A stretch of 37,128 bases of DNA from a virus, in IMG/VR virus record IMGVR_UViG_3300036399_000489, positions 1 through 37,128 of that record; one strand, given 5' to 3'. The notes under the pieces were generated by a model. It saw nothing but the letters and a program-made list of their open reading frames with translations. It had not been told where the DNA came from and searched no databases. The number at the start of each line of letters is the position of its first letter. Within the stretch, counting starts at the first letter, position 1. Shown here piece after piece: positions 4,476-37,128 of this stretch. The position numbers and the translations under genes were made by a program.

Positions 4476-4949
4476 ATGGCTAGCCTTGATGTCACGATCA
4501 ACTTTGACACTGCGAAGATGCGCAAACTCATTAACAACATGGAGGCTGCGAAGCGCGGAGAGGCGCTAGCGGCTGCGTCTAAGGTCATCGACCGCTACAT
4601 CTATAACAACCTTGCCCCACAGATTGCCGCAAGGACTCCAGTCGATACTGGTGCGTTGGTGAATAGCCTTACAAGCCCAGAGGCGCCTGGGGCTATCTAT
4701 AAGGGCGTCATCACTGGCAGCCAGTTCAATCTTGTCTACGGCACAGAGATGGATGCGCAGATGCGTTACGAATACTACGGAGGCGGAAAGACTGGCTCTG
4801 GATCAGTCCCGTACCCATATTTCTACCCTGGGGACGTGGAGCAGGAGCACGGAATGATCTCCTACGGCTTGACCGTTTGGCGAGATATTCTCCACACCTC
4901 AGCCCTAGGAAACATCTCTAAGGCGATCCTGCGGGTGCTTAGGCGGTAG
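4476..4949 (+). CDS. HK97 gp10-like neck / tail completion protein
   Basis: A 157-residue protein starting 1 nt after the previous stop. It has the typical family core: a helical N-terminus, then ARTPVDTGALVNSL (about 53-66), then a beta stretch and LVYGTEMDAQMRYEYY, followed by a proline/aromatic segment (SVPYPYFYPG). This pattern is characteristic of HK97 gp10-like proteins, which join the head connector to the tail. The gene is the last one of the plus-strand head block; its 3' end overlaps the 3' end of the convergent metallophosphoesterase gene by 11 nt. Confidence 0.78.
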   Translation: MASLDVTINFDTAKMRKLINNMEAAKRGEALAAASKVIDRYIYNNLAPQIAARTPVDTGALVNSLTSPEAPGAIYKGVITGSQFNLVYGTEMDAQMRYEYYGGGKTGSGSVPYPYFYPGDVEQEHGMISYGLTVWRDILHTSALGNISKAILRVLRR

Positions 4950-20289: not shown

Positions 20290-21788
20290 TTTTTACCTCC
20301 TTTCTGGCTTTTCCTATTTGATGATTTTGAACTATCGCTTGGGGCTCCTGCTGGAGCGCCACCGCCGCCAGTTGGGGCTGGTCCGCCACCCGCTGGTCGT
20401 CCAGCAGCGGCGATTGTGGCTACGGAACTAGCAATCTGGGTAACGATGACAGCAGGGACAACTGCCTCTTGCGCCTGCTTGCGCTCCTCAGGCGTCATGT
20501 CTTCGCCAAGTTTGGCAACGGTGTCAACTGCTTCCCCAGCAGCGTCCGCAACGGCGCTAACCGCCTCAGCCGCAGCCTCTGCAACAGCGGCGACCGCTTC
20601 ACCTACGACTGCGGCAGCCTCACCAGCAAATTCGATAACGGCAGGTGGCTCGTCGCTTGGCGACGGGCTTGGCTCTACGGAAGGCGGCACAGGGGACTCT
20701 GTTGGCTCAACAGAAGGAACAGGAGTGGGACTAGGAGTAGGGGACTCTGTTGGAGTAGCCACTGGCGACGGGACGGGCGTGGTCGTCGGTCGAGGTGTGG
20801 CAGACGGTGACGGCTCTGGGGTTGGATCTGGGGTAGGTTCTGGTGTCGGCTCAATTGGCGGTACCTCCGTTGGGCTTGGTGTCGGCTCCACGGTTGGAGA
20901 CGGCGTTGGCTCAGGGGTTGACGTAGGGGTTGGGCTTGGGGTTGGTGGCGGCGGGGCAGGAACAAAGACGGACACCGCGCCTGAGGAAGGCGAGTACACG
21001 CTAAGCGTATCGTTGTCAGCCCTTACCCAGAATGTGTACGTTTGGTCAACGCCGCCCGTAATGACAAAGACGTTGCTGGCGATGCCCATATTGGTCTCTG
21101 TGGACGCAGCGCCCCACCCGTTCAATTCGCCCGTAGTCCAGAACACGCCATATCGCTCAATGCCAGTCCCACTTGACTCTGGCGCGTTCCATGTTAGATA
21201 GACGTTGCCGTCTGTGTACACGGTCACCATCAAGCCAGTTGGGGCATTGAGGTACGGGGTTGGAACAGGCGTTGGGGTTGGCTCTGGCGTGGGCGTTGGG
21301 GTTGGCTCTGGCGTGGGGGTAGGTTGGGGCGTAGGAGTCCACGTGGCGGACGGAGTGCCAGGAGCCAACTCAATCGAAAAGTTGCTGATTAGGTAGTAGT
21401 GGTTGCCGTTAAAGCGATCAGCCGTTGGGTCGCCGCAGCAGACGCCAGCGCGAATTCGATAATCGCCAGCCAGCAGTGAGATGCGGATTGTAGAGGCAAG
21501 GGAATATCCACCTGTGTGATCGGTGAATGAATCGTCATTTGCGGCAATAAGCGTGCCGTTGCCGTCGTACAGCCACAACATGGAATCAACTGTGCCAGGG
21601 CACCATGAAGACGTGGTGTCGTCGCAAAGGTCAGTCCACAGGTGCAGTTCTCCGTCCGCAGGGAGGTTGACCCAGAAGTCTTGCGTTCGATCTACGTAGT
21701 TGTTCTCCACGCCGCGCACCGTGGCAGTAACAGCAAAGGTAAAAACAACGAGGAGCCAGCAACAAGCAGTAACAAGGAATTTGTTCAC
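20286..21788 (-). CDS. Secreted, membrane-anchored Pro/Thr-rich protein with beta and fibronectin domains
   Basis: A 500-residue protein starting with GTG. Residues 1-26 are a signal peptide (MNKFLVTACCWLLVVFTFAV then TATVRG). Residues 30-142 form a beta domain like bacterial pre-peptidase C-terminal domains (GELHLWTDLCDD, VDSMLWLYDGNGTL, LLAGDYRIRAG) with five Cys. A Pro/Thr/Glu repeat (149-178), a fibronectin-III domain (182-276) and a longer Pro/Thr/Ser/Glu repeat (278-395) follow. Then come an Ala-rich helix, a hydrophobic segment (about 446-466) and a basic Lys/Arg tail, as in a one-pass membrane anchor. It has its own promoter. In a phage this suggests a moron that decorates the host surface, for example to block superinfection; a virion adhesin is the alternative. 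Confidence 0.75.
   Translation of the reverse strand: MNKFLVTACCWLLVVFTFAVTATVRGVENNYVDRTQDFWVNLPADGELHLWTDLCDDTTSSWCPGTVDSMLWLYDGNGTLIAANDDSFTDHTGGYSLASTIRISLLAGDYRIRAGVCCGDPTADRFNGNHYYLISNFSIELAPGTPSATWTPTPQPTPTPEPTPTPTPEPTPTPVPTPYLNAPTGLMVTVYTDGNVYLTWNAPESSGTGIERYGVFWTTGELNGWGAASTETNMGIASNVFVITGGVDQTYTFWVRADNDTLSVYSPSSGAVSVFVPAPPPPTPSPTPTSTPEPTPSPTVEPTPSPTEVPPIEPTPEPTPDPTPEPSPSATPRPTTTPVPSPVATPTESPTPSPTPVPSVEPTESPVPPSVEPSPSPSDEPPAVIEFAGEAAAVVGEAVAAVAEAAAEAVSAVADAAGEAVDTVAKLGEDMTPEERKQAQEAVVPAVIVTQIASSVATIAAAGRPAGGGPAPTGGGGAPAGAPSDSSKSSNRKSQKGGKK
21269..21316. repeat. Tandem 24-bp repeat in the first Pro/Thr-rich stretch
   Basis: Two identical 24-base copies lie end to end at 21269-21292 and 21293-21316. 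They encode 8-residue PTPEPTPT-type units in the secreted protein. Near copies continue on both sides. Confidence 0.85.
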
Positions 21789-22457: not shown

Positions 22458-23411
22458 CTATGTCTTGATTATGTAATACAACTTTTGCGACTTTGGATCA
22501 TGCGTTGCGTGCGCATGCCCGCCGCTGCTTCCAGGGGCAGATAACGTATGGGAGTGATTTTCATTTGAGGCAGGCGCTCCGCTGGTATTTGATGTGGCAG
22601 ATGCCCCAGTGTGGGTATGGGCGGGGTGGGCTGCTGGTCCAGTGTATGACGTGGTTGTGACTACGTGATTTGACGACGATCCTGCTGAGGCAAGGGAAAC
22701 AACATGGGTATGCCCTCCACCAGAAACAGAAACCCCAGAAGTGAAAAAGATGTTTGCATAGGCGGTGTTTGCCCCGCTTGTAATTGAGTGCGTATGCGCT
22801 GATCCCGCAAAATTGAACACCCCGTCCACGGTGTGGCTCCCATCCCCGCTGCTCCCGCTTGTGCCAGAGGTAGTGCTGTGCGAGTGGCTTCCAGTGTGGG
22901 AATGGCTCCCCGCAGGTGTCATGCTTGCGACGTGAGAAGAGTGTGCGCCATCAGTTGAGTGGCTAAATGACTCATAGAAAGACGTGCCAGTTGTTGCAAC
23001 CCAGTTAGAGGCATCGCCTGATGGATCTGGCGCAACGGCACCAAGGGCATTAGATGGACCCATAAGCCAATAGTTGTCGTAGTTTGGCAAGTTAAACGTT
23101 GTTGTGCCATCACCCACACCATACTTTGTCCCAATGACCGCAAACAAATTTGCGTACGTTGTTCGAGAAACCGCGTCTCCATTGCAGAGAATCCAACCAG
23201 ACGGGACATTGCTGTGAGCGCCAGCCCATGACGTAACCATGCCAGGTTTCCCCGCAGCCACAGCAGCGCCGCCGCCCACGTCTGCCCATCCCGTGCTCTT
23301 ATATACCCTGATTTTCTTAGTAGTTGTATTGAAATAAATTTGACCAATGTTGCTTGCCTGGTCGCTGTCTGCGACTGGTAGCCCAAGCGGAGAAACGAAA
23401 TTTACTGACAT
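22458..23411 (-). CDS. Tail collar-domain fibre protein 3 (His-rich)
   Basis: A 317-residue fibre protein. The start is taken at the ATG at 23411 (MSVNFVSPLG), 1 nt after the previous stop; a longer frame to 23558 would overlap that gene in another frame. An N-terminal attachment module (IGQIYFNTTTKKIRVYKSTGWADV, about 24-47) is shared with the next three fibres. A phage tail-collar domain follows (SGWILCNGDAVSRTTYANLFAVIGTKYGVGDGTTTFNLPN). The rest is Gly/Ser/Thr-rich with many H-x-H motifs (SHSHTGSHSHS, AHTHSI, GHTHVV, NENHSHTL) ending in KLYYIIKT. H-x-H motifs bind iron or zinc in the trimeric tips of T4-type fibres, so a metal-threaded receptor-binding fibre is inferred. Confidence 0.85.
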   Translation of the reverse strand: MSVNFVSPLGLPVADSDQASNIGQIYFNTTTKKIRVYKSTGWADVGGGAAVAAGKPGMVTSWAGAHSNVPSGWILCNGDAVSRTTYANLFAVIGTKYGVGDGTTTFNLPNYDNYWLMGPSNALGAVAPDPSGDASNWVATTGTSFYESFSHSTDGAHSSHVASMTPAGSHSHTGSHSHSTTSGTSGSSGDGSHTVDGVFNFAGSAHTHSITSGANTAYANIFFTSGVSVSGGGHTHVVSLASAGSSSNHVVTTTSYTGPAAHPAHTHTGASATSNTSGAPASNENHSHTLSAPGSSGGHAHATHDPKSQKLYYIIKT

Positions 23412-23412
23412 G

Positions 23413-24336
23413 TTATGCCGCCTTAATGATGTAGTGAGCCATATAGGCTTTGTAAGAGTGATCCGTGTGCGTGTGCGATCCATCGCTTGATGGTGTCGCT
23501 GTATGGTTGTGTGTTGCTGGGGAAGCCCCTGAGGTATTGCTGGATGTAGACAAATCAAAGACTGGGCTATGCCTGTGTGCTGCGTGGGCAGACCACGAAG
23601 ACGTGCTTACTGTGTGGCTATGAGTATCTCCTGTAGATACGCTTGGGGCTGGGTGGGCATGTGCCGTAGACGCTCTGGTCGACGTAGAGGAACTAGAGGT
23701 AAGACCAGCCCCAGTTGCTACGGATGCGGTATGACCGTGGCTTTGCCCGCTATTAGATGTGTCTGAATATGTATGTGCCGCGTTCGTGATCGTAGTCTCT
23801 GAGACCGTCGCGGAATGCGAATGCGTATTGCTGTGTTCAGTTTCCGCCGCCGCCGTGTACGTTAGCGAGTGAGAGTGGTTAGCGGCATCTCCAATGTGAG
23901 CAGCAATTTCTTTGGCATCAATAGACCCTTGGCGGAACGTTGACGTGTTGTCAATATCGCCAAGAAGACTTAGACCAGGTGCGCCAACGACTTGGTAGCC
24001 CTGAAGGTCAGGAACGTTAAAGGTCGTTGAGCCATCACCCGTTCCGAATCTGGTAGAAATGATTGCGTACAGTCCGCTATAGGTTGACCTAGAAACCGCC
24101 TGACCGTTGCAAATCAACCAGCCAGATGGGGCAGACGCGCCAAGCCACGGCTGCACCGTTCCAGTAGGCATTTCTGAAGTTCCTGAAGATCCAAGATCCG
24201 CCCATGACGTCCCATCATGGTATCGAACCTTTTGATTGACGCTATCATAATAGATCAGCCCCTCAGAAGAGTAGGCTGTCTCAACATTTGCCTGAGTTGA
24301 AACTGGAAGTTTAATGCTTGAAAGAACCTGGGTCAT
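23413..24336 (-). CDS. Tail collar-domain fibre protein 2 (His-rich)
   Basis: A 307-residue paralogue of its two neighbours. Its N-terminal module (SEGLIYYDSVNQKVRYHDGTSWADL, about 26-50) is followed by a collar domain (SGWLICNGQAVSRSTYSGLYAIISTRFGTGDGSTTFNVPD) and a His-rich shaft or tip (NHSHSLTY, THSHSATV, THSHTVSTSS, HRHSPVF, SHTHTDHSYKAY) ending AHYIIKAA. Its ATG overlaps the upstream fibre's stop by 4 nt, showing translational coupling. The tip sequence differs from both paralogues while the collar is conserved, as expected if each copy binds a different receptor. Confidence 0.85.
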   Translation of the reverse strand: MTQVLSSIKLPVSTQANVETAYSSEGLIYYDSVNQKVRYHDGTSWADLGSSGTSEMPTGTVQPWLGASAPSGWLICNGQAVSRSTYSGLYAIISTRFGTGDGSTTFNVPDLQGYQVVGAPGLSLLGDIDNTSTFRQGSIDAKEIAAHIGDAANHSHSLTYTAAAETEHSNTHSHSATVSETTITNAAHTYSDTSNSGQSHGHTASVATGAGLTSSSSTSTRASTAHAHPAPSVSTGDTHSHTVSTSSWSAHAAHRHSPVFDLSTSSNTSGASPATHNHTATPSSDGSHTHTDHSYKAYMAHYIIKAA

Positions 24337-25268
24337 GCTTTCACCAGATAATGAACTCGCGCTCGATTTGCAGAATGAGCGCTGTGATCGTGCGAGGCAG
24401 TACCGTCTGCTGTCATAGACCCGCCATGGGTGTGTGCGCCATTGCTACCAGAGGTGCCAGTATATGATGGAGTTGACCCAGTATAAGAATGGTTATGACC
24501 GCTGCATGTAGAGCACCCTTCTGTAACGCTGTGGGTATGAGCATTTCCCCCAGAGACATTTGCAACTGTGTGGGTGTGGCTTGAGGTTGCGGCGGGTTCT
24601 GTCGCTGAAGTGTTACGCACGCCAATTGTTCCAGTAGATGTCCCAAGGTCTCCAACCGTATGCGCGTGACCTGTAGATGACGTCGATGCGACGTATGTGT
24701 GCGTGTGCCCTGGCAATGCCGTGGAACTACTGAACGATGTACTGGTGGCGTGGTCAATAGCATGCGTATGTGAGCCCTGAGAATTGTCGCTAAAGGTATG
24801 TGTATGAGCCCATGTGTCTGTTGAATGGCTAAGGGCAGTAAAGGGGTCAGCAGTTCCGTAGGTCCAGACTTTTCCGCCAGCAGTGTTGCCAACTGCAACG
24901 CCTGCGTTTGCGCTTACCGCGCCAACAAGAGATAGGGCTCGAAAGTCAGGAAGGTTGAATGTGGTAGAGCCGTCGCCAACCCCAAAATATGTCCCAATCA
25001 CAGCGAAAAGGTCAGCATATGTTGATCGAGATACGGCAACGCCTTGGCAGTTAAGCCAGCCAGTTGGGCGATTCCCAGGTAAGCCAACCCAAATGATAAT
25101 TGACCCCGTTGGCATCTCAATCGTTGTGCCAGACCCTAAGGCAGCCCAGGAAGATGAGTTCTTCAACTTTAACTCATCTGTAAAACTATTGTAATAAAAA
25201 GTGCCCTCATCCGCGGTTGGGTCTGAGGTTAGTTCTGCGTTCTTTAGGGTGCTTATAAACCTGGGCAT
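24333..25268 (-). CDS. Tail collar-domain fibre protein 1 (His-rich)
   Basis: A 311-residue protein and first of three tandem collar fibres. The N-terminal module is DEGTFYYNSFTDELKLKNSSSWAALGSG (about 19-46, here cited as the region around FYYN and SSWAAL). The collar domain reads GWLNCQGVAVSRSTYADLF...FNLPDF. The His-rich part has at least nine H-x-H motifs (AHTHTF, SHTHAI, GHTHTY, GHAHTV, SHTHTV, AHTHSV, GHNHSY, AHTHGG, SHDHSAH) and a Cys pair (EGCSTC), ending VHYLVKA. The start has no ribosome site and is 6 nt after a TATAAT. It is a probable receptor-binding fibre. Confidence 0.85.
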   Translation of the reverse strand: MPRFISTLKNAELTSDPTADEGTFYYNSFTDELKLKNSSSWAALGSGTTIEMPTGSIIIWVGLPGNRPTGWLNCQGVAVSRSTYADLFAVIGTYFGVGDGSTTFNLPDFRALSLVGAVSANAGVAVGNTAGGKVWTYGTADPFTALSHSTDTWAHTHTFSDNSQGSHTHAIDHATSTSFSSSTALPGHTHTYVASTSSTGHAHTVGDLGTSTGTIGVRNTSATEPAATSSHTHTVANVSGGNAHTHSVTEGCSTCSGHNHSYTGSTPSYTGTSGSNGAHTHGGSMTADGTASHDHSAHSANRARVHYLVKA

Positions 25269-25328: not shown

Positions 25329-26885
25329 TTACCCGATTACAACCCAGCGATAGTCGCCTGCGAGGCTGATTGTGACGGTGACTACGCTCGTGCTGGTGGT
25401 GACCACGTCAGCAAAGACTAGCGCGTCTGTTGAGTCGTACAGGGCTACCGTGACGTCCTTGGTGCCAATGCTGTGCGTGACTGCCTTAGCCTCACCAGCG
25501 GTCCAGGTGGCGGTGCCGCTCTTCTTTCGAGGAAGACTAAATCCGCTCTCCGCAAGGGCATCGCGTGCCGCAGAGGCAGACGTTGCGCCCGTACCACCAT
25601 TCGCCAAGGCGATGGCAGTGCCGTTCCAGGTACCCGTGGCGATTGTTCCAACGGAGGTCAGGCTTGAACCAGTGACTCCGCTGCCAAGGGTTGTCCCGCT
25701 AAGGACTTCTGTGTTGTTGATCTTGTATACCTTGCCGCTGGCAAGGTCAGCATGCTCAGACAAGGTCCACGCGTCAGTTGCATCAACCCAGTTGATGGTC
25801 TTGTCCGTGGTGCCCTTAAGAGTAATACCACCGCCGTCAGCGCCAGCATCCGTTGGGGTTACCGTAGAGCCAAGTTCAAGGTTCTTGTCATCGACCGTTA
25901 CGGTTGTCGAGTTTACCGTTGTAGTCGTTCCGTTTACCGTCAAATCTCCAGAAAGGACAAGGCTTGTACCAGTCGCCGCGCCAATGTTTGGCGTGACAAG
26001 GGTTGGGGTGTTGGCAAATACCAACGCACCAGTGCCTGTCTCGTCAGAAATGACACCAGCAAGTTCGCTGGACGATGTCGCAGCAAACGTGCTCAACTTG
26101 TTTTCAGTCAACGCAACCGTACCCGTTGCATTTGGAAGGGTAATCGTTCGGTCTGCGGTTGGGTCTGTGACCGTAAGGGTTGTCTCATAGTCGTCAGCCG
26201 TGGCGCCTTCAAAGACCACACCAGCACCATCAACAATAGGCGCGGTAAGCGTCTTGTTGGTGAGGGTCTGCGTGCCAGTCTCAGTTACGTAGCCCGTAAG
26301 CGACGGAATGTCAGACGTAAGAGCAAGCGTACCAGTCGTTGCTGGAAGGGTAACCGTTCCGCCTGCCGTTGCGGCTGGCTGAAGGGTTGTCGTTCCCGTT
26401 GACGATCCTGGGAGCGCAACGCTTGAGATCCCCGTGAGGGCGAGGTTTGCGGACGAGCGGTTCAGCGCAACGCTGGTCGTACCAACAAAGGTTGTGTCAG
26501 ATGGGTTTGCCTTGCCGTTGGCAAGATCATAGGCAGACTTGACGGACGCAGGCGTTGCAGCCTTGCTGGTTGAAGTGCTAGACGTGGAATCCTCTAGTTG
26601 GACAGCACCCTTGACGGTGGTTGAAGCGTCAGCAATGCTGATTTCTGGGGTAGCGCCACCTGTTGAGGAAATTGCACCAGTACCAGTAACAGCAGTAACG
26701 GTTCCTGCGCCAGTCGAAAGACTTGCCCATGCGCCGTTAGCGTAGACGCGGAGTACATCAAGCGCCGTATCGTAGTAAACCTGCCCCTCAACTGGGCTCG
26801 CAGGAGCCGTGGCAAGATTCTGGATTACCGCGTTCTGGAGTTCATTTTTGCTAAGATCAAGGCTGGTCAGGAACTTTGTTGCCAC
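25329..26885 (-). CDS. Large tail fibre protein
   Basis: A 518-residue fibre with a GTG start and an AAGGAG ribosome site. The N-terminus (about 25-58, VEGQVYYDTALDVLRVYANGAWASL) is the same attachment module found in the three collar fibres. The shaft is Thr/Ser/Ala/Gly-rich with recurrent phage-fibre phrases (TGTQTLTNKTL near 203, DRTITLPNATGTVAL, LANGGTGATSASAARDAL). The final 55 residues (THSIGTKDVTVALYDS ... VTVTISLAGDYRWVVIG) resemble the C-terminal domain of the small gene just upstream. It probably forms a trimeric side or central fibre and shares a docking site with the collar fibres. Confidence 0.82.
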   Translation of the reverse strand: MATKFLTSLDLSKNELQNAVIQNLATAPASPVEGQVYYDTALDVLRVYANGAWASLSTGAGTVTAVTGTGAISSTGGATPEISIADASTTVKGAVQLEDSTSSTSTSKAATPASVKSAYDLANGKANPSDTTFVGTTSVALNRSSANLALTGISSVALPGSSTGTTTLQPAATAGGTVTLPATTGTLALTSDIPSLTGYVTETGTQTLTNKTLTAPIVDGAGVVFEGATADDYETTLTVTDPTADRTITLPNATGTVALTENKLSTFAATSSSELAGVISDETGTGALVFANTPTLVTPNIGAATGTSLVLSGDLTVNGTTTTVNSTTVTVDDKNLELGSTVTPTDAGADGGGITLKGTTDKTINWVDATDAWTLSEHADLASGKVYKINNTEVLSGTTLGSGVTGSSLTSVGTIATGTWNGTAIALANGGTGATSASAARDALAESGFSLPRKKSGTATWTAGEAKAVTHSIGTKDVTVALYDSTDALVFADVVTTSTSVVTVTISLAGDYRWVVIG

Positions 26886-26895
26886 GTTTCTCTCC

Positions 26896-27186
26896 TTAGT
26901 TTAAATATGCTTTGCCAGCGAATCCGCTGGAGAATCGAACCGTGATCTGGTTCGCACTGTCGTAGGTAACCTCTCCAAACACCACAGTACCAGCACTGTC
27001 AACCACGCTGACTGCTGGGTGTCTAGCCATGTTGTGAGGGATTACCCAAGTTGCACTCGCAACAGCCTGATTGAACGTAAAAGTCTCAGATCCGACATAT
27101 GCCACGCTGGCTGATGTCGTGATTGTTGGGACGCTTTGCGTAATACTTAGATTTAGATTAGGTGCGTTGATCTCCAGCGGGCTCAT
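26896..27186 (-). CDS. Small fibre-tip-like structural protein
   Basis: A 96-residue beta protein. The domain from about residue 35 (TFTFNQAVASATWVIPHNMARHPAVSVVDSAGTVVFGEVTYDSANQITVRFSSGF, cited by its ends) is a common phage fibre/tail module that contains the IPHN and VTV.FS motifs and ends in AYLN. A similar module closes the large fibre gene downstream. It overlaps the previous gene by 4 nt (ATGA) and precedes the large fibre by 10 nt, so the three are one transcript. It is probably a virion component of the baseplate or fibre. Confidence 0.7.
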   Translation of the reverse strand: MSPLEINAPNLNLSITQSVPTITTSASVAYVGSETFTFNQAVASATWVIPHNMARHPAVSVVDSAGTVVFGEVTYDSANQITVRFSSGFAGKAYLN

Positions 27187-27527
27187 CGAGAAATAGCCCC
27201 AGCAATGTCAAATGTGCCTGTAATCAACTTTTGCTCCAGTCCTGTATTGCTGTTAAGGATCAAATCATAGACGTATGATCCTGGCTGAACCCCTTGCAAA
27301 GTAGCGCTATCGATTAGCAGGGTGACGGTCCCCGCTGCCCCGCCAAGGGTGATTCCGCTTGTTTCCGTGAGTGAAATGTAAGCGGCTGAGGCGCTGGCGT
27401 TTTTTCTGACCTGCATCTTGGCGGTATACCCCGTAAGGTTAACGAGTGCCGCAGCCGCTGTTCTATAAGTTAACACGAAGGACAAGTCTGATCCCTGCTC
27501 CGCGGTAATGTTGTATTGGTCAGACAT
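27183..27527 (-). CDS. BppU-like N-terminal-domain tail protein
   Basis: A 114-residue beta-sandwich protein (QGSDLSFVLTYRTAAAALVNLTGYTAKMQVR..., VQPGSYVYDLILNSNTGLEQKLITGTFDI). This pattern is shared by small phage tail proteins related to the N-terminal part of BppU-type upper baseplate proteins. It is the first gene of the 22-kb minus-strand block. Its ATG has no ribosome site and is placed 6 nt after a TAAGAT element, so a leaderless message is likely. It may form the adaptor that holds the downstream fibres. Confidence 0.65.
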   Translation of the reverse strand: MSDQYNITAEQGSDLSFVLTYRTAAAALVNLTGYTAKMQVRKNASASAAYISLTETSGITLGGAAGTVTLLIDSATLQGVQPGSYVYDLILNSNTGLEQKLITGTFDIAGAISR

Positions 27528-27561
27528 GCGCGTATCTTACTGTATGTAGGACGTTATTCAA
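27528..27561 (-). promoter_or_regulatory. Predicted leftward promoter of the tail-fibre block
   Basis: On the minus strand TTGAAT (27561-27556), a 16-nt spacer and TAAGAT (27539-27534) precede the ATG at 27527 by 6 nt. Each hexamer matches at 4 of 6. The spacing equals that of the stronger examples in this window. Confidence 0.5.
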
Positions 27562-27597
27562 CACTTTTGCTTCTACGTGGTGTATAATCACATTATG
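27562..27597 (+). promoter_or_regulatory. Predicted rightward promoter of the terminase genes, leaderless ATG
   Basis: A perfect TATAAT (27583-27588) stands 6 nt before the ATG at 27595, which has no ribosome site. No good -35 hexamer is visible at the usual distance. It faces away from the leftward promoter, with the two starts 67 bp apart. Confidence 0.55.
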
Positions 27598-28131
27598 GCT
27601 AAAACTGGTCGTAGACCTATGGGGCAGACCGCTGCCCTTCGAGACAAGATTTCAGGGCTGTTGCTGGCTAACGTGCCGCCCAGCCAGATTGCCTCTGCCG
27701 TGGATCTCCAACTAGACACTGTGTATAGACACATTTCTGCCATCCGCAAAGAGTGGGCTGCGCAGAATCCTGGCGGGAATGACGGCAATCGCACGGAACT
27801 TCTTGCCAAAGCGCGAGATATCATGCGGCAGGCTGCTGCGGGCGCTGCCCGCGCGCGAGGCGGTCCTACTGAAGTTGCGTTCTTGAAGGTGCAACTTGAG
27901 GGTCTTGACCGCATTGCCAAACTGACTGGAGCGTATGTAGCGGACAGGCTTGAACTTACGGGGGCGAACGGCGGCGCCATTGAGATGTCATCTGAGCACG
28001 CAATTGATGCATTGAGCGACGGCGACCTTGCGGAGCGCATGAGGGTGTGGGCTGAGTCCCTAGAGGCTCAGATTGTAGAGGGAAAGGTGGTTGAGATTGC
28101 CTCAGCAGCAGACGCAGCAGACCCTCAGTAA
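27595..28131 (+). CDS. Terminase small subunit
   Basis: A 178-residue protein. Residues 14-50 (ALRDKISGLLLANVPPSQIASAVDLQLDTVYRHISAIRKEW, cited by ends) form a helix-turn-helix of the type that recognises the packaging site. The middle is helical (EVAFLKVQLEGLDRIAKLTGAYV), a typical oligomerisation region of small terminases. The gene overlaps the large subunit gene by about 41 nt. The ATG at 27595 was chosen over an upstream GTG at 27577 because the TATAAT of a promoter lies between the two. It binds phage DNA and loads the large subunit. Confidence 0.82.
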   Translation: MAKTGRRPMGQTAALRDKISGLLLANVPPSQIASAVDLQLDTVYRHISAIRKEWAAQNPGGNDGNRTELLAKARDIMRQAAAGAARARGGPTEVAFLKVQLEGLDRIAKLTGAYVADRLELTGANGGAIEMSSEHAIDALSDGDLAERMRVWAESLEAQIVEGKVVEIASAADAADPQ

Positions 28132-29545
28132 TCGAGAATACAGAGACTGGCTGCGAAGGAAGGCAGCAACCTCTGACGCCGCTTTTGCAGAGTACATGAG
28201 CAATCTAGTCTTTCCCCCGTACTTGCGCGGGATGGAAGACTTCTTAGATAAGAACGATGCAGCCCTTGTCCTCATGCCGCGCGGTCATGCAAAGACCACA
28301 ATGCTTATTCATCGCGCTGCGCGTCTTGTTGGCGTCACGAAGGGAAAAGTCCGCATTGGTGTAATCACTGCGGTTATGGCTGAAGCAATGTCTCGATCAC
28401 GAGCAATCAAGAACTTAGTGGAAAGCCCAATGTTTGCTGAAGTGTTTCCATGGGCAAAAGATGGGGTGGTTGGGTCTAAGTGGACTGACGAAACATGGAC
28501 AGTGAAAAACGTTAACCTAGGAAAAGATAGCACTTGCTTCTCTGACGGTTTGTCGTCAATCAAGCCAGGAGCACGTCTTGATATTGTTATCTGCGACGAC
28601 ATGGTGGGCATGCGAGAGAATGCAACTCCTGGTCAGAGGCAGAAGGCAAGCGAAACGTATTGGCAGGTTATCGACCCAATGCTTGTTCCTGGTGCAAAGC
28701 GCTGGTACATTGGCACGCGGTGGCACGAAGACGACTTCTACGCTGAGTTGACCCGCAAGGGCATCCCAACCCTTAAGCGAGCCGCCATCGAAGACGGTCA
28801 GCCTTTGTGGAAGAAGATGTACACGGTTGAAGAACTCCAAAAGAAGCGCGACGAACTAGGGACTCCAATCTTTATGCTTCAATACCAGAACGACGTCACC
28901 TCCATGGGTGGAAACATTTTTCGATACGAGTGGTTTCAGTACGTGGAGCAGGTGCCAGAGGGTGTTCGCAGAATTGGCGTTGACCTTGCAGCAAGCGCCA
29001 GTGAGCGAAGCGACTACACTGCTGCTGTTGAAATTGTTGAGGACAAAGACCATAACATTTACATTGTGGGTTCCTATAGGTCCCGCATGCAAGAAGGTCA
29101 TAGGCAGTGGCTTACTGGAATTTCAAAAACTGGCGGGCTGATGGACGACCCCACTAGCCCTAAACTTTCATGGAGCGCGTCACTTCTTGGTCTTCGTGGT
29201 CAGAACTGGGTTCAGCAGACTGACGAACCCAGGGCTATTGAGATGCTGAATATCGAAGCAGTCCAGCACCAGAGCACATTTGTGAGGGAGATGCTGAGCG
29301 AAACTCGCCTTCCAGCACGTGCAGTTCGCCCAGATAAAGACAAGGTGAGCCGCAGCCGCGCTCTTGCCGCCAGGTATGAGGCTGGCAAGGTGTTCCATCT
29401 TAGGAACGCCCCAGGGCTCCAGGAACTCGAAAGGGAGATGATGGGGTTCCCAAATAGCGAGCACGATGACCTTGTTGACGCGCTTGTTTATGCCGCAGAC
29501 GTTGGTTCAGTATCCCTTTACTTTACTTCAGCGAGAAGGTTTTAG
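28091..29545 (+). CDS. terL: Terminase large subunit
   Basis: A 484-residue packaging motor. The ATPase half has a Walker A-type motif LMPRGHAKTT (61-70; Ala where Gly is usual), a Walker B LDIVICDD (163-170) and the coupling-type GTRWHEDDFY (208-217). The nuclease half has GVDLAASASERSDYT (D298, D308), IEAVQHQ (E389) and SEHDDLVDALVYA (D459-D463), the RNase-H-like metal site. The start is uncertain: TTG at 28091 or 28097, both inside the small subunit gene; the next ATG (28196) would remove a conserved N-terminal region. About 45 residues (340-385) between nuclease motifs look inserted. The 3' end overlaps the convergent gene by 4 nt. Confidence 0.95.
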   Translation: MRLPQQQTQQTLSNREYRDWLRRKAATSDAAFAEYMSNLVFPPYLRGMEDFLDKNDAALVLMPRGHAKTTMLIHRAARLVGVTKGKVRIGVITAVMAEAMSRSRAIKNLVESPMFAEVFPWAKDGVVGSKWTDETWTVKNVNLGKDSTCFSDGLSSIKPGARLDIVICDDMVGMRENATPGQRQKASETYWQVIDPMLVPGAKRWYIGTRWHEDDFYAELTRKGIPTLKRAAIEDGQPLWKKMYTVEELQKKRDELGTPIFMLQYQNDVTSMGGNIFRYEWFQYVEQVPEGVRRIGVDLAASASERSDYTAAVEIVEDKDHNIYIVGSYRSRMQEGHRQWLTGISKTGGLMDDPTSPKLSWSASLLGLRGQNWVQQTDEPRAIEMLNIEAVQHQSTFVREMLSETRLPARAVRPDKDKVSRSRALAARYEAGKVFHLRNAPGLQELEREMMGFPNSEHDDLVDALVYAADVGSVSLYFTSARRF

Positions 29546-32355: not shown

Positions 32356-32909
32356 CTTGCAACCCACTCTCCGTCAGTTGGCTTCTTTGGCTCTTCTTCT
32401 CCGCGCTTTACCTCAACGGGGTACCACGCCCTGCTGTAGCGATAGTCAGCCAAGTTGCGTTGCTTGAATACGTTGTTTTGGTATAGAAGATCAACTTCGC
32501 TGCGAGCGGCACCAATCTGTCGCGCCACCTCATCTGGGTCAATTCCGTCCTGATCGATGAGGCTCTGCACGAGTTCGCTCATGGACAGGGCGCCGTGTTC
32601 CCCCTTGGCGCGATTGATTCTTACCGTCAGCATTTTTGCGTCAAACTCTGGAATGTCCATAACCGCACATGGGACCAGACCCCCGTATTTTCGATTAAGT
32701 TCCTTTGACTCCCTCGACAGCATCCACCTGTGGAAACCGTCAATGATTGTCCCAGCGGGGGTGATCAAGATTGGCTGAATCCATCCGTTGGTGAGGATGC
32801 TAGTCTCCAGCAATTGCAACTCTGGGTTAAATACCTTGTTAGGGTTCCAGTGGTTAGCCTTTAACTCGCCAGCGTTGCGCCACTCAATGCGATCAATTGG
32901 GTCAGCCAT
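32352..32909 (-). CDS. ParB-like nuclease-domain protein (IbrB-like)
   Basis: A 185-residue protein with a ParB/sulfiredoxin-like N-terminal domain: NHWNPNKV (19-26), QPILITPAGTIIDGFHRWMLS with the motif DGFHR (57-61), then a helical part (MLTVRINRAKGEHGALSMSELVQSL) that resembles the ParB HTH region. It overlaps the PAPS-reductase-like gene by 8 nt. The pairing of a PAPS-reductase family protein with a ParB-like protein is known as IbrA/IbrB in E. coli and phages, first linked to regulation of immunoglobulin-binding genes; the biochemical role is not settled. ParB domains can be CTPases or nucleases. Confidence 0.82.
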   Translation of the reverse strand: MADPIDRIEWRNAGELKANHWNPNKVFNPELQLLETSILTNGWIQPILITPAGTIIDGFHRWMLSRESKELNRKYGGLVPCAVMDIPEFDAKMLTVRINRAKGEHGALSMSELVQSLIDQDGIDPDEVARQIGAARSEVDLLYQNNVFKQRNLADYRYSRAWYPVEVKRGEEEPKKPTDGEWVAR

Positions 32910-34023
32910 TTTCCCTCTCCGCTAACAATGCCGCTCGACGCTTCATTCGTACAGTTTGGTTGTTCAGGATTGTGGTGTCCACTCTACCATGAGCAAGCAC
33001 GCTTAGCAAGTAGTCTGGGGTAAACGACTCAGGGTCTTTGTCAGATAGCGTCTTAAACTCAGCAAGCCGCTTCTTTGCTTGGATTCTGCTCTCTTTGTCG
33101 TCAGAGAACCTCTTAGCAATGAATGCGGAGACGCCTTCCCATCCTCTCTCCCTGTATGGGGCAATCATTCCTTCCGTGTCAAAGTCTTTTCCATACCGTT
33201 TCTGCAATACCGCTTCAGGGAATACTTTTAAAACCATTTCCCAAAGTTCTGGGTCTGTCTGCGCTAATTTTGGCAACTTAGCCACGCTGCTGAAATGCAG
33301 CGGCGTGCTTACGCGCAGTTTCACCCCAGTGATTGCTTGTGCGTCATAGATTTGGCACCAAGGGATCTTGCTCTCATGAAGCCACTTCATGATGTCATTT
33401 TCAGTCCAGTCGTAGATAGGCTTTGCCATGCGTACGCGCTTTGGCTGCGGCACGCCAGACGGCACCGTTGGCGCGGTAATGTAGTTATCGTGCAGTTTGT
33501 TGACGACGCTGCGGTATCGAATATTCGACTCCTCAGCACGGATTCCAGTTACGAAGGCAACCATACCCTTGTAGGACTTTGCGATGTAGGCATCAAGACT
33601 ATGCTGGTCAACCTTTTTCCCGTCAAAGCCTTCTAGTTTTTCCGCCCAGTCTGGCATTGGTCTAGCCCATTCTCTATCTGGGTCCCATGCCCAGTAGGTG
33701 GATCGCTCAGTGAGAATATAAGTTTCGTTCTCAAGGGGAGCGCAGAACCACCGCATCCTAATCCATGGCTTGTTCCTATACTCGTTGACGAAGTCAATGA
33801 CGGAAGGGTGGATTAACTCCTCGTCACGGAACACGACATCAATTACCGCGTCTTCGCCGTATCTCTTCTTAGCCTCTTCCCACCCTAGGTGGATACAGAC
33901 AAGGCTGTCTTTCCCGCCACTGAACATGTAGACCACAGTGTCAAAGACGTCATAGATGTGGGCAATGCGGTTGCTCGCCTCTTCAATGACACTGTTGTCA
34001 ATGTACTTACGAAATCTCGCCAT
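32902..34023 (-). CDS. PAPS reductase-family PP-loop protein (IbrA-like)
   Basis: A 373-residue protein with a PP-loop VYMFSGGKDSLVCIHLGW (SGGKDS at 35-40), the adenylate-forming signature of PAPS reductases, DndC and tRNA thiolation enzymes. Further family-like segments are VFRDEELIHPSVIDFV, PWIRMRWFCAPLENE, TGIRAEESNIRYRS and KPIYDWTENDIMKWL. It lacks an obvious Cys pair or the ECGLH end of true sulfonucleotide reductases, so sulfate reduction is unlikely. It overlaps the PD-(D/E)XK gene by 17 nt and the ParB-like gene by 8. With its ParB partner it resembles IbrA/IbrB; sulfur transfer to, or adenylation of, a nucleic acid is a reasonable guess. Confidence 0.85.
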   Translation of the reverse strand: MARFRKYIDNSVIEEASNRIAHIYDVFDTVVYMFSGGKDSLVCIHLGWEEAKKRYGEDAVIDVVFRDEELIHPSVIDFVNEYRNKPWIRMRWFCAPLENETYILTERSTYWAWDPDREWARPMPDWAEKLEGFDGKKVDQHSLDAYIAKSYKGMVAFVTGIRAEESNIRYRSVVNKLHDNYITAPTVPSGVPQPKRVRMAKPIYDWTENDIMKWLHESKIPWCQIYDAQAITGVKLRVSTPLHFSSVAKLPKLAQTDPELWEMVLKVFPEAVLQKRYGKDFDTEGMIAPYRERGWEGVSAFIAKRFSDDKESRIQAKKRLAEFKTLSDKDPESFTPDYLLSVLAHGRVDTTILNNQTVRMKRRAALLAERENG

Positions 34024-34579
34024 CGTTCCAAATCTTCTTTGTGATGTGGTCGAAGAATCCTTGCAATGGGGTCAGTTTCTCGTTGCTAACCTTAACGCGG
34101 GATCGCTGATCTTTTCCTTCTCCATAAATATGCTCTGCTGCGTCTCGCATGAATTTCTCTTTTGAGCACACGCCCCACACCCGCCAAATGGAGGATTGCG
34201 CCTCAGGGTGCTGCCTATCACCAATCAACTGCACAAGAATGGCGATGTCCGCCTTGAAGTGCTTCTTGCTGTTGAAAATCAATTCGTCCAGCGTGGATGT
34301 CTTGACGTCCCACTTGAACCCGTACGCCAAGCAGTCGATTCCAGTATCTCCACCTGGGCGGATCTCCCAATCAAGCGCGGTCGCCCAGTCGAGGTCCAGT
34401 GCGTGGCATGCTGCAATCTCTCCAAGCCTTCCCATCAGATCGACCGCGGAGGAAGTGCTCTTACGGTCGTACCACTGGTCTACAACCTCATGGTCTTGTT
34501 TGAATGCTTGCTTTTCCGCAGTCCACTCAATGCAACGGCGAACCTCTGATTCGCTAAGACGAATATCCCTGTAGCGCAT
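34007..34579 (-). CDS. PD-(D/E)XK nuclease-like protein
   Basis: A 190-residue protein with the restriction-nuclease-type core: a helix containing RLGEIAACHAL (E54), then PGGDTGIDCLAYGFKWDVKTST with D82 and D91-V-K93. The order E ... D ... D-x-K is that of PD-(D/E)XK enzymes, which include restriction, recombination and repair nucleases. The last part is helical and charged. It lies between a ParB-like gene (8-nt gap) and the IbrA-like gene (17-nt overlap). It could cut host or competitor DNA, or cut in response to a modification state set by its neighbours. Confidence 0.75.
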   Translation of the reverse strand: MRYRDIRLSESEVRRCIEWTAEKQAFKQDHEVVDQWYDRKSTSSAVDLMGRLGEIAACHALDLDWATALDWEIRPGGDTGIDCLAYGFKWDVKTSTLDELIFNSKKHFKADIAILVQLIGDRQHPEAQSSIWRVWGVCSKEKFMRDAAEHIYGEGKDQRSRVKVSNEKLTPLQGFFDHITKKIWNDGEIS

Positions 34580-34587
34580 CTGCGCCT

Positions 34588-35190
34588 TTACGGGCGAATG
34601 GAGTCGTCAATGAAGCGAGTCAGGCGTGCGGCAAACGTCTCATACTCTGGGTACTTGCCCTTCAGCCACTTCACAAACTCAAACCAAAGGTCCTGCTGCT
34701 CCTCGTCGTCAAAGACAATTTCAGCCGTTGGCGACTGGTCTGCCATTTCCTTGGTATCGTCTGTCTGCTTCTCAATCTTTGCAAGCAAGGAATCTAGATC
34801 GTCTGAGTCGTAGCCAGTCCCATCAAGGTGACCGCTTGTTGCCAGATCCTCAAGAATCAACGCAAGGGAAGAGTCGTTGTAGTCGCCAATGTCTGACATG
34901 CGGTTATCCGCAATAAGGTACGCCTTGGCGTCCTTGTCTGACAAATCTGTGACCACAGCAGCAATGTGCGTCCAGCCAAGAGCCTTTGCTGCACCAAACA
35001 CGTGGTTTCCAGCAACGATGTAGTTTGTCTCCTTGGCGACCACGATAGGCTTCTGCTGCCCAAATCGGGTGAGCGATTCTTGGATTTTTGTTTCGTCGCC
35101 ACGGCGCGGGTTATTTGGGTACTTCGCTAGTTGCTCAACGGGGACAAGAAGCACCCGCAGTTGCTCAGCACCATTCCAAATCTCAGACAT
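34588..35190 (-). CDS. Second ParB-like protein
   Basis: A 200-residue protein with a ParB-type N-terminal domain: LAKYPNNPRRGDETKIQESL (21-40), GQQKPIVV (44-51), YIVAGNHVFGAAKALGW (57-73), and YLIADNRMSD (91-100). The usual GxHR triad reads GNHV, so Arg is absent, as in many phage versions. The end is acidic and helical (FDDEEQQDLWFEFVKWLKGKYP). It resembles the ParB domains often found near phage methyltransferases. It overlaps the upstream unknown gene by 8 nt and has a ribosome site (GGGAG). It may bind DNA or CTP; it is clearly different from the ParB-like gene at 32352. Confidence 0.82.
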   Translation of the reverse strand: MSEIWNGAEQLRVLLVPVEQLAKYPNNPRRGDETKIQESLTRFGQQKPIVVAKETNYIVAGNHVFGAAKALGWTHIAAVVTDLSDKDAKAYLIADNRMSDIGDYNDSSLALILEDLATSGHLDGTGYDSDDLDSLLAKIEKQTDDTKEMADQSPTAEIVFDDEEQQDLWFEFVKWLKGKYPEYETFAARLTRFIDDSIRP

Positions 35191-35734
35191 ATTTCTCTCC
35201 CTCCATCCAGAAGACTACTCGTGGGCGAAGCCCATTTGAGCGAAGGTTTTCTACCATCGCCTCTACCCCCATGATACACCAGAATGAAGGCGTTTGTACA
35301 GACCCATCTTGGACCTGCTTCTTAATTTCTCGTACAAACTCAAACCACGCTGAGCCAATGACCATCCCTTCAGCAGAGCGGGTCTCAGGGATTCCCCGCA
35401 CCTCTTCTCTGTGGGCGGTCGCCGTCCTGTTCTCCCATCGCCATGTGCCACCGCCCTTATACAGCCCTTCCTCGCGCATTCCGCCAGGGTAGCCAATTGT
35501 GCCACCAGAGATAGGCGCAAAGAGGCTGACGGTCATGTCAGATGCGTCAAGAGGGAAAGGTCGAATAATGTCGTCCCGCCATTCTGCCAACTCAATGCCT
35601 GCGCTTTGCTGCGTCAGAAACTTGTGGATTGCTGGGTCTGGCGGACAGTAGGCGACGGAAAACAATTGATGGTCAACTGGCGCGTCGCCACCCCCGCTTG
35701 CAACAACCTCAACGACAATTACCATGGATGGCAT
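35183..35734 (-). CDS. Unknown protein (183 aa)
   Basis: A 183-residue protein whose start overlaps the previous stop by one base (TAATG). It has a hydrophobic start (MPSMVIVVEVVASGG) that is probably a beta strand, a Gly-rich middle (PISGGTIGYPGGMREEGLYKGGGTWRWENR), and a mixed alpha/beta end (GSAWFEFVREIKKQVQDG, RPRVVFWMEGEKYV). No catalytic motif or family is recognised. The tight coupling between the acidic 102-residue protein and the ParB-like protein argues that it works in the same system. Confidence 0.7.
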   Translation of the reverse strand: MPSMVIVVEVVASGGGDAPVDHQLFSVAYCPPDPAIHKFLTQQSAGIELAEWRDDIIRPFPLDASDMTVSLFAPISGGTIGYPGGMREEGLYKGGGTWRWENRTATAHREEVRGIPETRSAEGMVIGSAWFEFVREIKKQVQDGSVQTPSFWCIMGVEAMVENLRSNGLRPRVVFWMEGEKYV

Positions 35735-36042
35735 TAGTAGGACTCCAACTCAGCCAAGGCATCTTCAAGTGTGTTGGGTGTCACATACACAGGAGTGTTT
35801 GGTCCAACATACGCACCAAGGACGTTGAACTCAAGATACTCAACCGCTTCCCCGTAGTGATCGCATTCACACTGGTCAGCGCAGTCTTTCGCGCTTTCCT
35901 TTATCAACTTATCAATCATCTTTGGGAGATCGTAGACCGCGACTCGTCGCATTCCAGCAGAGCCCGCGAACACAGAGCCAGTCCCAATGAAGCAATCTTC
36001 CCATCCATCAGCCAGCAAGATCTCGTCTTCTTCGTAAGCCAT
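35734..36042 (-). CDS. Unknown acidic protein (102 aa)
   Basis: A 102-residue acidic protein. The start is set at ATG 36042, which overlaps the stop of the SAM synthetase by one base (TGATG); a frame starting at 36063 would lie inside that gene. It has the segments DGWEDCFIGTGSVF, VYDLPKMIDKLIKESAKDCADQCECDHYGEAVEYLEFNVLGAY and a short acidic end. The Cys/His group (C, C, C-x-H near 65-71) might bind a metal. No family is recognised. Confidence 0.7.
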   Translation of the reverse strand: MAYEEDEILLADGWEDCFIGTGSVFAGSAGMRRVAVYDLPKMIDKLIKESAKDCADQCECDHYGEAVEYLEFNVLGAYVGPNTPVYVTPNTLEDALAELESY

Positions 36043-37128
36043 CAACCCTCCACGCTCTCCCACGGGAGCCCATCAACACCAAAGTGCCCCTGAACGGCTG
36101 CCGTGTAGTACCAAGGCTTCCGCAGGTCAAACCGCTCAATAATCGCGGCAGGGCGGAAATCCCATCTCTCAATAATATACTTCCTAATCGCCTCGTTGTC
36201 ACCAGTGCCATACGCGTCAACGGTCAGAGAAACTGGGCGCGGCATACCAATTGCATACGCCACGGAGATCTCCACCTTGCGCGCTAGCCCGTGCGCTACA
36301 ACATTCTTCGCGGCGTGCCTTGCGGCATACGATGCTGACCTATCTACCTTTGTTGCATCCTTGCCACTGAATGCCCCGCCACCGTGGTGCGCTTCGCCGC
36401 CGTATGTATCTACAATAATCTTACGACCAGTAAGTCCAGCGTCCGCTGCTGGACCGCCAAGGACAAACCTGCCTGTTGGATTAATCAAGTACGTTGCATT
36501 AGGCGTGACCATCCCCGCAAGTTCAGACTGAGCGAGTCCGTACAGTTGACCCCTAAATGCGGAGAGATCAACCCCAGCCTCGTGCTGAGCGCTTAGGACG
36601 ACGGTGTCAATAAGCCCAGAGTCGTTGACCGTAATCTGAGATTTTCCGTCTGGGCGCAAGCCATCAACGGAGCCGTCCATGAGCGCCATAGAAAGCGCGC
36701 GGGTAAGTTTCTTTGCTGCGTAAATAGGTAGGGGCATAAGCACGTCTGTCTCGTCTGTTGCGTAGCCGTACATAATGCCCTGGTCGCCTGCGCCCATCTC
36801 AGCGCCCTCTACAACGCCCATTGCGATGTCTGGAGACTGCTCCTTGATGCTTGACGTGATGGAGCATTTCATTGGGTCAATGCCAGACTCTGCGGTGTAG
36901 CCAATAGAACTTAATACGCTGCGCGCAACCATCTCGTGGTCAACCTTCGCGGAACTTGCGACTTCACCAAAAATCCAAACTTGCGACCCTGAAACTGCGC
37001 TCTCGCAGGCAACGCGGGAATACGGGTCTTGCTTTAGGTATTCGTCAAGGATGGCGTCGCTAATCTGGTCGCAGATTTTATCTGGGTGACCGCGCGTTAC
37101 GCTTTCAGCCGTTCTGCTCAAGGTTCCC
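36042..37128 (-). CDS. metK: S-adenosylmethionine synthetase (5' end outside window)
   Basis: At least 359 residues of methionine adenosyltransferase, which makes SAM from ATP and methionine. The signatures are all present: ESVTRGHPDKICDQISDAILD near the start, GAGDQGIMYGYATDET, MPLPIYAAK, LRPDGKSQITV, STAQH-like VVLSAQHEAGVD, and GGGAFSGKDATKVDRSASYAARHAAKN, with a normal C-terminus. The methionine/ATP motif usually reads SVTEGHPDK; here Glu is Arg. The frame stays open to the window edge without an ATG, and cellular enzymes have a few residues more, so the start is likely just outside. A SAM synthetase is unusual in a phage and may supply the methyltransferase of this operon. Confidence 0.94.
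   Translation of the reverse strand, partial: GTLSRTAESVTRGHPDKICDQISDAILDEYLKQDPYSRVACESAVSGSQVWIFGEVASSAKVDHEMVARSVLSSIGYTAESGIDPMKCSITSSIKEQSPDIAMGVVEGAEMGAGDQGIMYGYATDETDVLMPLPIYAAKKLTRALSMALMDGSVDGLRPDGKSQITVNDSGLIDTVVLSAQHEAGVDLSAFRGQLYGLAQSELAGMVTPNATYLINPTGRFVLGGPAADAGLTGRKIIVDTYGGEAHHGGGAFSGKDATKVDRSASYAARHAAKNVVAHGLARKVEISVAYAIGMPRPVSLTVDAYGTGDNEAIRKYIIERWDFRPAAIIERFDLRKPWYYTAAVQGHFGVDGLPWESVEG

Follow-up and report, generated by a model that had tools for sequence, protein, structure and literature searches.

A conserved pair of predicted divergent, leaderless-type promoters between the terminase and tail-fibre genes of a phage family

The short gap between the packaging and tail-fibre genes of the phage genome described here probably holds a true divergent pair of -10/-35 promoters of the kind read by the primary sigma factor, presumably that of the host, with each transcript starting at the A of a start codon, so that two leaderless mRNAs would be made. 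We put the probability of this reading, which rests on a comparison of related sequences, at about 0.7. As a conserved, predicted promoter pair for the terminase and tail-fibre blocks, the arrangement is well supported. The window, meaning the whole stretch of DNA that was analysed, is IMG/VR virus record IMGVR_UViG_3300036399_000489, with 37,128 bases and a GC content of 53.7%.

Layout of the promoter region and the genes it serves

The features of the region are collected in Table 1. The preliminary description had seen two opposing leaderless-type starts sharing 67 bp, and the letters bear this out, since both -10 boxes sit 6 nt from an ATG. The transcripts are predicted to start at the A of ATG 27595 (rightward) and the A of ATG 27527 (leftward), 68 bp apart, and the -10 boxes are separate. 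No Shine-Dalgarno sequence was seen before either ATG in the window; together with a -10 placed about 6 nt before the start beyond chance expectation, this gives the pair both sequence marks of a leaderless unit. A TG lies directly 5' of the rightward TATAAT (27581-27582), and no TTG precedes this box at either a 16-bp or a 17-bp spacing. The leftward -35 had been described as lying just upstream of the rightward -10. It does fall in the rightward -35 zone, which it overlaps by 2 bp, but it is 21 bp away from the -10 and not adjacent to it.

Table 1. Positions of the promoter elements and of the genes on either side in the window
Feature	Position	Strand	Basis
Intergenic region of 67 bp with both promoters	27528..27594	.	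read directly; homologous in 27 clusters
Rightward -10, TATAAT	27583..27588	+	6 nt before ATG 27595 (small-terminase-like gene)
Leftward -10, TAAGAT	27534..27539 (read 27539 to 27534)	-	6 nt before ATG 27527 (P2)
Leftward -35, TTGAAT	27556..27561 (read 27561 to 27556)	-	16-bp spacer to -10
Small-terminase-like gene, 179 codons including stop, predicted leaderless	27595..28131	+	directly upstream of large terminase
Large terminase	28091..29545, start provisional	+	phrog_38, E 2.3e-66; PF17289, E 6e-09
P2, first leftward gene, tail-fibre-assembly-like, predicted leaderless	27183..27527	-	phrog_1084, E 3.6e-19; phrog_3304, E 3.9e-12
P4, second leftward gene	26896..27186	-	phrog_30556, E 9.2e-19, a family of unknown function
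Tail-fibre gene with Phage_fiber_2 repeat, Shine-Dalgarno-led (AAGGAG)	25329..26885	-	PF03406, E 1.1e-11

The claim that divergent leaderless-type promoters face the terminase and tail-fibre blocks also stands: phrog_38 matches on the right, a phrog_3304-like P2 and a Phage_fiber_2 gene lie on the left, and the relatives keep the arrangement. The phrog_3304 family is that of L-shaped tail fibre assembly. The small-terminase-like gene has only a weak match, to phrog_645, and its name leans on its position and on the helix-turn-helix-like look that we take its product to have.

How far the leftward transcript directly serves the fibre genes is limited by other promoters. The next fibre gene, with its start at 25268, has its own promoter (TTGCAA-16-TATAAT-6-ATG), and the leftward gene starts at 21788 and 8052 have promoters resembling it. 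All three stand at block heads, and in each a TTG-N16-TANNNT stops 6-7 nt short of the start codon. Since later fibre genes carry their own promoters, the promoter studied here would directly serve P2, P4, and the first fibre gene, and the others by read-through only. Many genes inside the window's blocks have AGGAG-type leaders. Three genes in tandem at 22458-25268 each have a tail-collar domain, and farther along, at 32902-37121, leftward genes encode an S-adenosylmethionine synthetase, a PAPS-reductase-domain protein, and a ParB_N-domain protein.

On the rightward side, the large terminase and a convergent leftward gene end in overlapping stop codons (29542-29545), an overlap found at the same offset of -3 in 12 of 26 cluster records. 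With this overlap so frequent in relatives, the two terminase genes form a two-gene rightward island between leftward genes.

Search for relatives and the comparison set

A strict single-sequence consensus scan of 26500-28600 called no promoters, neither of the two considered here among them (shuffle mean 1.6), and a strict terminator scan called none at the locus. A single sequence therefore could not settle the promoters, and the comparison of relatives does. Among named phages, a near-identity search of 50,697 records gave no near match to the window's right third. The protein search found only distant large terminases, with all 252 records below 60% identity and those listed (n = 30) at 20.9-26.5%, so no annotated relative was usable for comparison.

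The genome contigs gave one match, an Anaerolinea MAG of about 70% GC with a large terminase of 57% identity. In it, a co-directional open frame runs up to the small terminase, whose start falls at that frame's stop, and a divergent promoter was not seen. Within the phylum of this MAG, the one searched, the large terminase is present in 3 of 301 genomes. Anaerolinea was not adopted as the host, the search having covered this phylum alone.

Relatives of the window were gathered with large-terminase scans, a P2 scan, and a small-terminase scan; the last gave the four nearest relatives only. At least 235 loci had the small terminase on the plus strand, with the best 80 loci taken from each larger scan, and the phage family is larger than the loci compared. 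After a copy of the window (L001) and two loci in which the start was not reached (L230 and L162) were dropped, 232 usable loci gave 72 distinct sequences in 27 clusters at 80%. An earlier pass, made with the first scan only, had given 20 clusters at 85%. The left starts were picked by hand from homologous N-termini while the promoter sequence could be seen, a weakness of the comparison, and the 27 clusters share descent, so their counts are not independent.

Conservation of the leaderless placement

The placement of both -10 boxes is conserved. On the terminase side, a -10 lies 6-8 nt before the start in 24 of the 27 clusters (23 at 6 nt, one at 7); on the leftward side this holds for 22 (NANNNT at 6 nt in 19, three at 7-8). 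The stricter TANNNT stands exactly 6 nt before the terminase ATG in 23 of the 27 representatives, compared with a mean of 0.86 and a highest value of 12 (at spacing 11) for the other 49 spacings, and none of 2000 shuffles reached 23. For the left side, the figure at 6 nt is 12 of 27, the mean at other spacings is 0.61, the highest is 4, and again no shuffle of 2000 was as high. That the hexamers are not promoters at all, as the empty strict scan might suggest, is thus very improbable, because position-specific conservation of this degree is not what chance would give.

All 54 sides of the 27 clusters are either leaderless-type or Shine-Dalgarno-led, and the latter are the eight without a -10 at 6-8 nt: the terminase starts of L208, L213, and L269 and the left starts of L306, L309, L175, L184, and L313. 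The left side of L271 is of the leaderless type yet also carries GAGG. Judged from the -10 positions, the window's messages should be leaderless in both directions.

Leaderless placement as something peculiar to this site was rejected, as it is family-wide: in these phages generally, TANNNT stands at 6 nt in 83 of 1435 candidate starts, compared with 4-23 at each other spacing from 0 to 24. Close divergent leaderless pairs number 24 in the 27 records, of which 18 are the small-terminase pair. Among the remaining six, the one in L010 is the same site read with an alternative start, and L047 has a plausible second pair of the divergent leaderless type between other genes (4562-4639), its gap being 77 bp.

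Two promoter types at a kept distance

The predicted promoters are of two types. Leftward, the -35 is a TTG, separated from the -10 by 16 or 17 bp in 17 of 22 clusters and just once by any other spacer from 10 to 25. Rightward, a -35 is mostly lacking (TTG at 16 or 17 in 3 of 24; six have it at 19), but a TG precedes the -10, immediately or at a gap of one base, in 21 of 24, 12 of them at the one-base gap; on the leftward side such a TG occurs in 7 of 22. The first base of the -10 is T in 24 of 24 rightward and 15 of 22 leftward promoters. The leftward promoter would accordingly be one that relies on its -35 and a moderate -10, and the rightward promoter one that relies on a strong -10 and the upstream TG.

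The distance between the predicted starts is 68-77 bp in 19 of 20 back-to-back clusters, as tallied by hand. L297 breaks the rule at 88 bp, and L269 does so with a 57-bp gap and an ambiguous arrangement. In four clusters one gene has a leader (L208, L213, L306, and L309), which widens the ATG gap to 86-94 bp, and the start distance is still 69-75 bp, in the case of L213 for any of three possible hexamers. Taken together, the constant spacing and the lack of a rightward -35 suggest two sites adapted to one another, though shared descent accounts for part of this. The rightward -35 may be missing because the leftward -35, or a regulator site, occupies that stretch.

The leftward partner is less constant. 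The first leftward gene belongs to five unrelated groups (13, 6, 6, 1, and 1 clusters). P2 is co-oriented with the leftward block in 26 of 27 clusters, either as its first gene or farther along, and in 13 of those 26 other leftward genes lie between it and the promoter. P2 as the constant divergent partner was rejected, as this holds in 13 of 27 clusters.

Merged promoters in six clusters

In six clusters (L058, L167, L170, L175, L184, and L313), the two -10 boxes overlap, and the start distance is about 18-23 bp. The invariant bases before the terminase ATG in the first five are TATAnTA plus one far-edge T, and TATAnTA lets the -7 and -11 positions of both sides coincide at a start distance of 18 bp; L313 corresponds to the 23-bp form. 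All five TATAnTA clusters have an A after the -10, compared to 4 of 18 others (hypergeometric P 0.004). In L058, L167, and L170, a TATACT on the opposite strand sits 6-7 nt from the leftward ATG, and the leftward message is therefore predicted to be leaderless or to have a leader of a few nt. On the large-terminase tree, five of the six merged clusters are grouped with the back-to-back L186. The merged label needs three changes on this tree, which means that it was gained or lost more than once. Mutual exclusion of polymerases at these predicted merged promoters follows from the geometry.

What the kept spacing may mean

The preferred reading is that of two different promoters kept as a unit with 68-77 bp from start to start, the rightward one giving a leaderless mRNA with the terminase genes and the leftward one a leaderless mRNA with the tail-fibre genes, and with simultaneous occupancy probably hindered at this spacing. 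Several accounts of the spacing can be set beside it. The most serious, which we rate at somewhat less than even odds, is plain compaction: two independent constitutive promoters packed to the limit, with inherited spacing and no functional coupling. Throughout these phages, genes are tightly packed and leaderless starts are widespread, as the overlapping convergent stops also illustrate for the packing. However, compaction does not readily explain a start distance that persists where a leader has widened the ATG gap, nor one that recurs with unrelated left genes, although common descent explains some of this. The spacing could also be kept for a regulator site, with a phage or host activator binding between the promoters and switching on the -35-less terminase promoter late. 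This is a fair alternative in kind, though we consider it rather unlikely. It would account for the scarcity of rightward -35 elements and for clade-specific conserved blocks between the promoters, such as CAACTT.C.GT.AAG in the 73-bp clade (L198, L222, L225, L229, and L294), which lies about 30-45 bp upstream of the terminase ATG and in some members holds a CTTG-N4-CAAG dyad, a possible regulator site. Against it, the blocks vary from clade to clade, a TG before the -10 can replace a -35, and no regulator gene is linked to the site.

A competition switch, in which polymerase at one promoter excludes the other and so sets the balance of packaging and fibre transcripts, seems to us equally doubtful. 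The 68-bp distance, with the leftward -35 reaching 2 bp into the rightward -35 zone, the constancy of the spacing, and the merged clusters, in which exclusion is a matter of geometry, all speak for it, and polymerase exclusion at 68 bp is plausible. The phage lambda promoters PR and PRM, however, can be co-occupied at about 82 bp, and five unrelated kinds of gene occupy the first leftward place. With genes between the promoter and P2 in half of the clusters having P2 and with later fibre genes under their own promoters, a packaging/fibre balance set at one promoter pair is too simple; such a balance through polymerase competition is only plausible. The published work on five bidirectional promoters of Escherichia coli also weighs against it: these are described as too weak at basal level to compete, with competition only upon activation of one side, and such direct clashes are said there to leave separate divergent promoters unaffected (Warman et al. 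2026, PMC12825309). Less probable still is the broadest version, a spacing-constrained terminase/tail unit in which exclusive polymerase binding sets the transcript ratio and which some lineages have rebuilt as a symmetric -10 starting two leaderless or near-leaderless messages within about 20 bp.

Comparison with known systems

In the open-access literature searched, no description of a "divergent leaderless" arrangement came up, nor any paper on mutually exclusive divergent promoters. The PR and PRM promoters of lambda are back-to-back, PRM gives the leaderless cI message, and the pair works as a repressor-operated switch between regulators. The pair described here is similar in its spacing and back-to-back order but faces packaging and structural blocks, with no operator or repressor known.

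The window is also similar, in TANNNT position and absent leader, to the leaderless genes described by Zheng et al. 2011, in which a Pribnow-like TANNNT precedes the start codon by about 12 bp, measured from the first T (PMC3160421). Those genes are on bacterial chromosomes, whereas here there is a divergent pair in a phage.

The bidirectional promoters studied by Warman, Grainger, and colleagues (PMC12825309, PMC10268837) are the closest match for the merged clusters. A start distance of 18 bp with coinciding -7 and -11 positions is the commonest arrangement of such promoters (PMC10268837), and L058, L167, L170, L175, and L184 match it with TATAnTA at 18 bp, as L313 does the 23-bp form. Bidirectional promoters of this type have a shared -10 and starts 7-25 bp apart; the window, with separate boxes and predicted starts 68 bp apart, falls outside this class, and the clusters of six relatives are predicted to fall within it. 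What sets the relatives apart is that both products are phage protein-coding genes and that, in three clusters, the predicted starts fall on both ATGs or no more than a few nt away from them.

By itself, the window is a modest result, a well-conserved and mechanistically ordinary promoter pair. The family, on the other hand, offers a natural series at one homologous site: back-to-back pairs spaced 68-77 bp apart, pairs whose -10 boxes overlap (about 18-23 bp), and genes that occur in both leaderless and Shine-Dalgarno-led versions. It is thus ready material for testing when two divergent promoters disturb each other and what difference a leader makes. Set against the lambda pair, the TANNNT genes, and the bidirectional promoters, it presents known principles in a compact, predicted leaderless variant.
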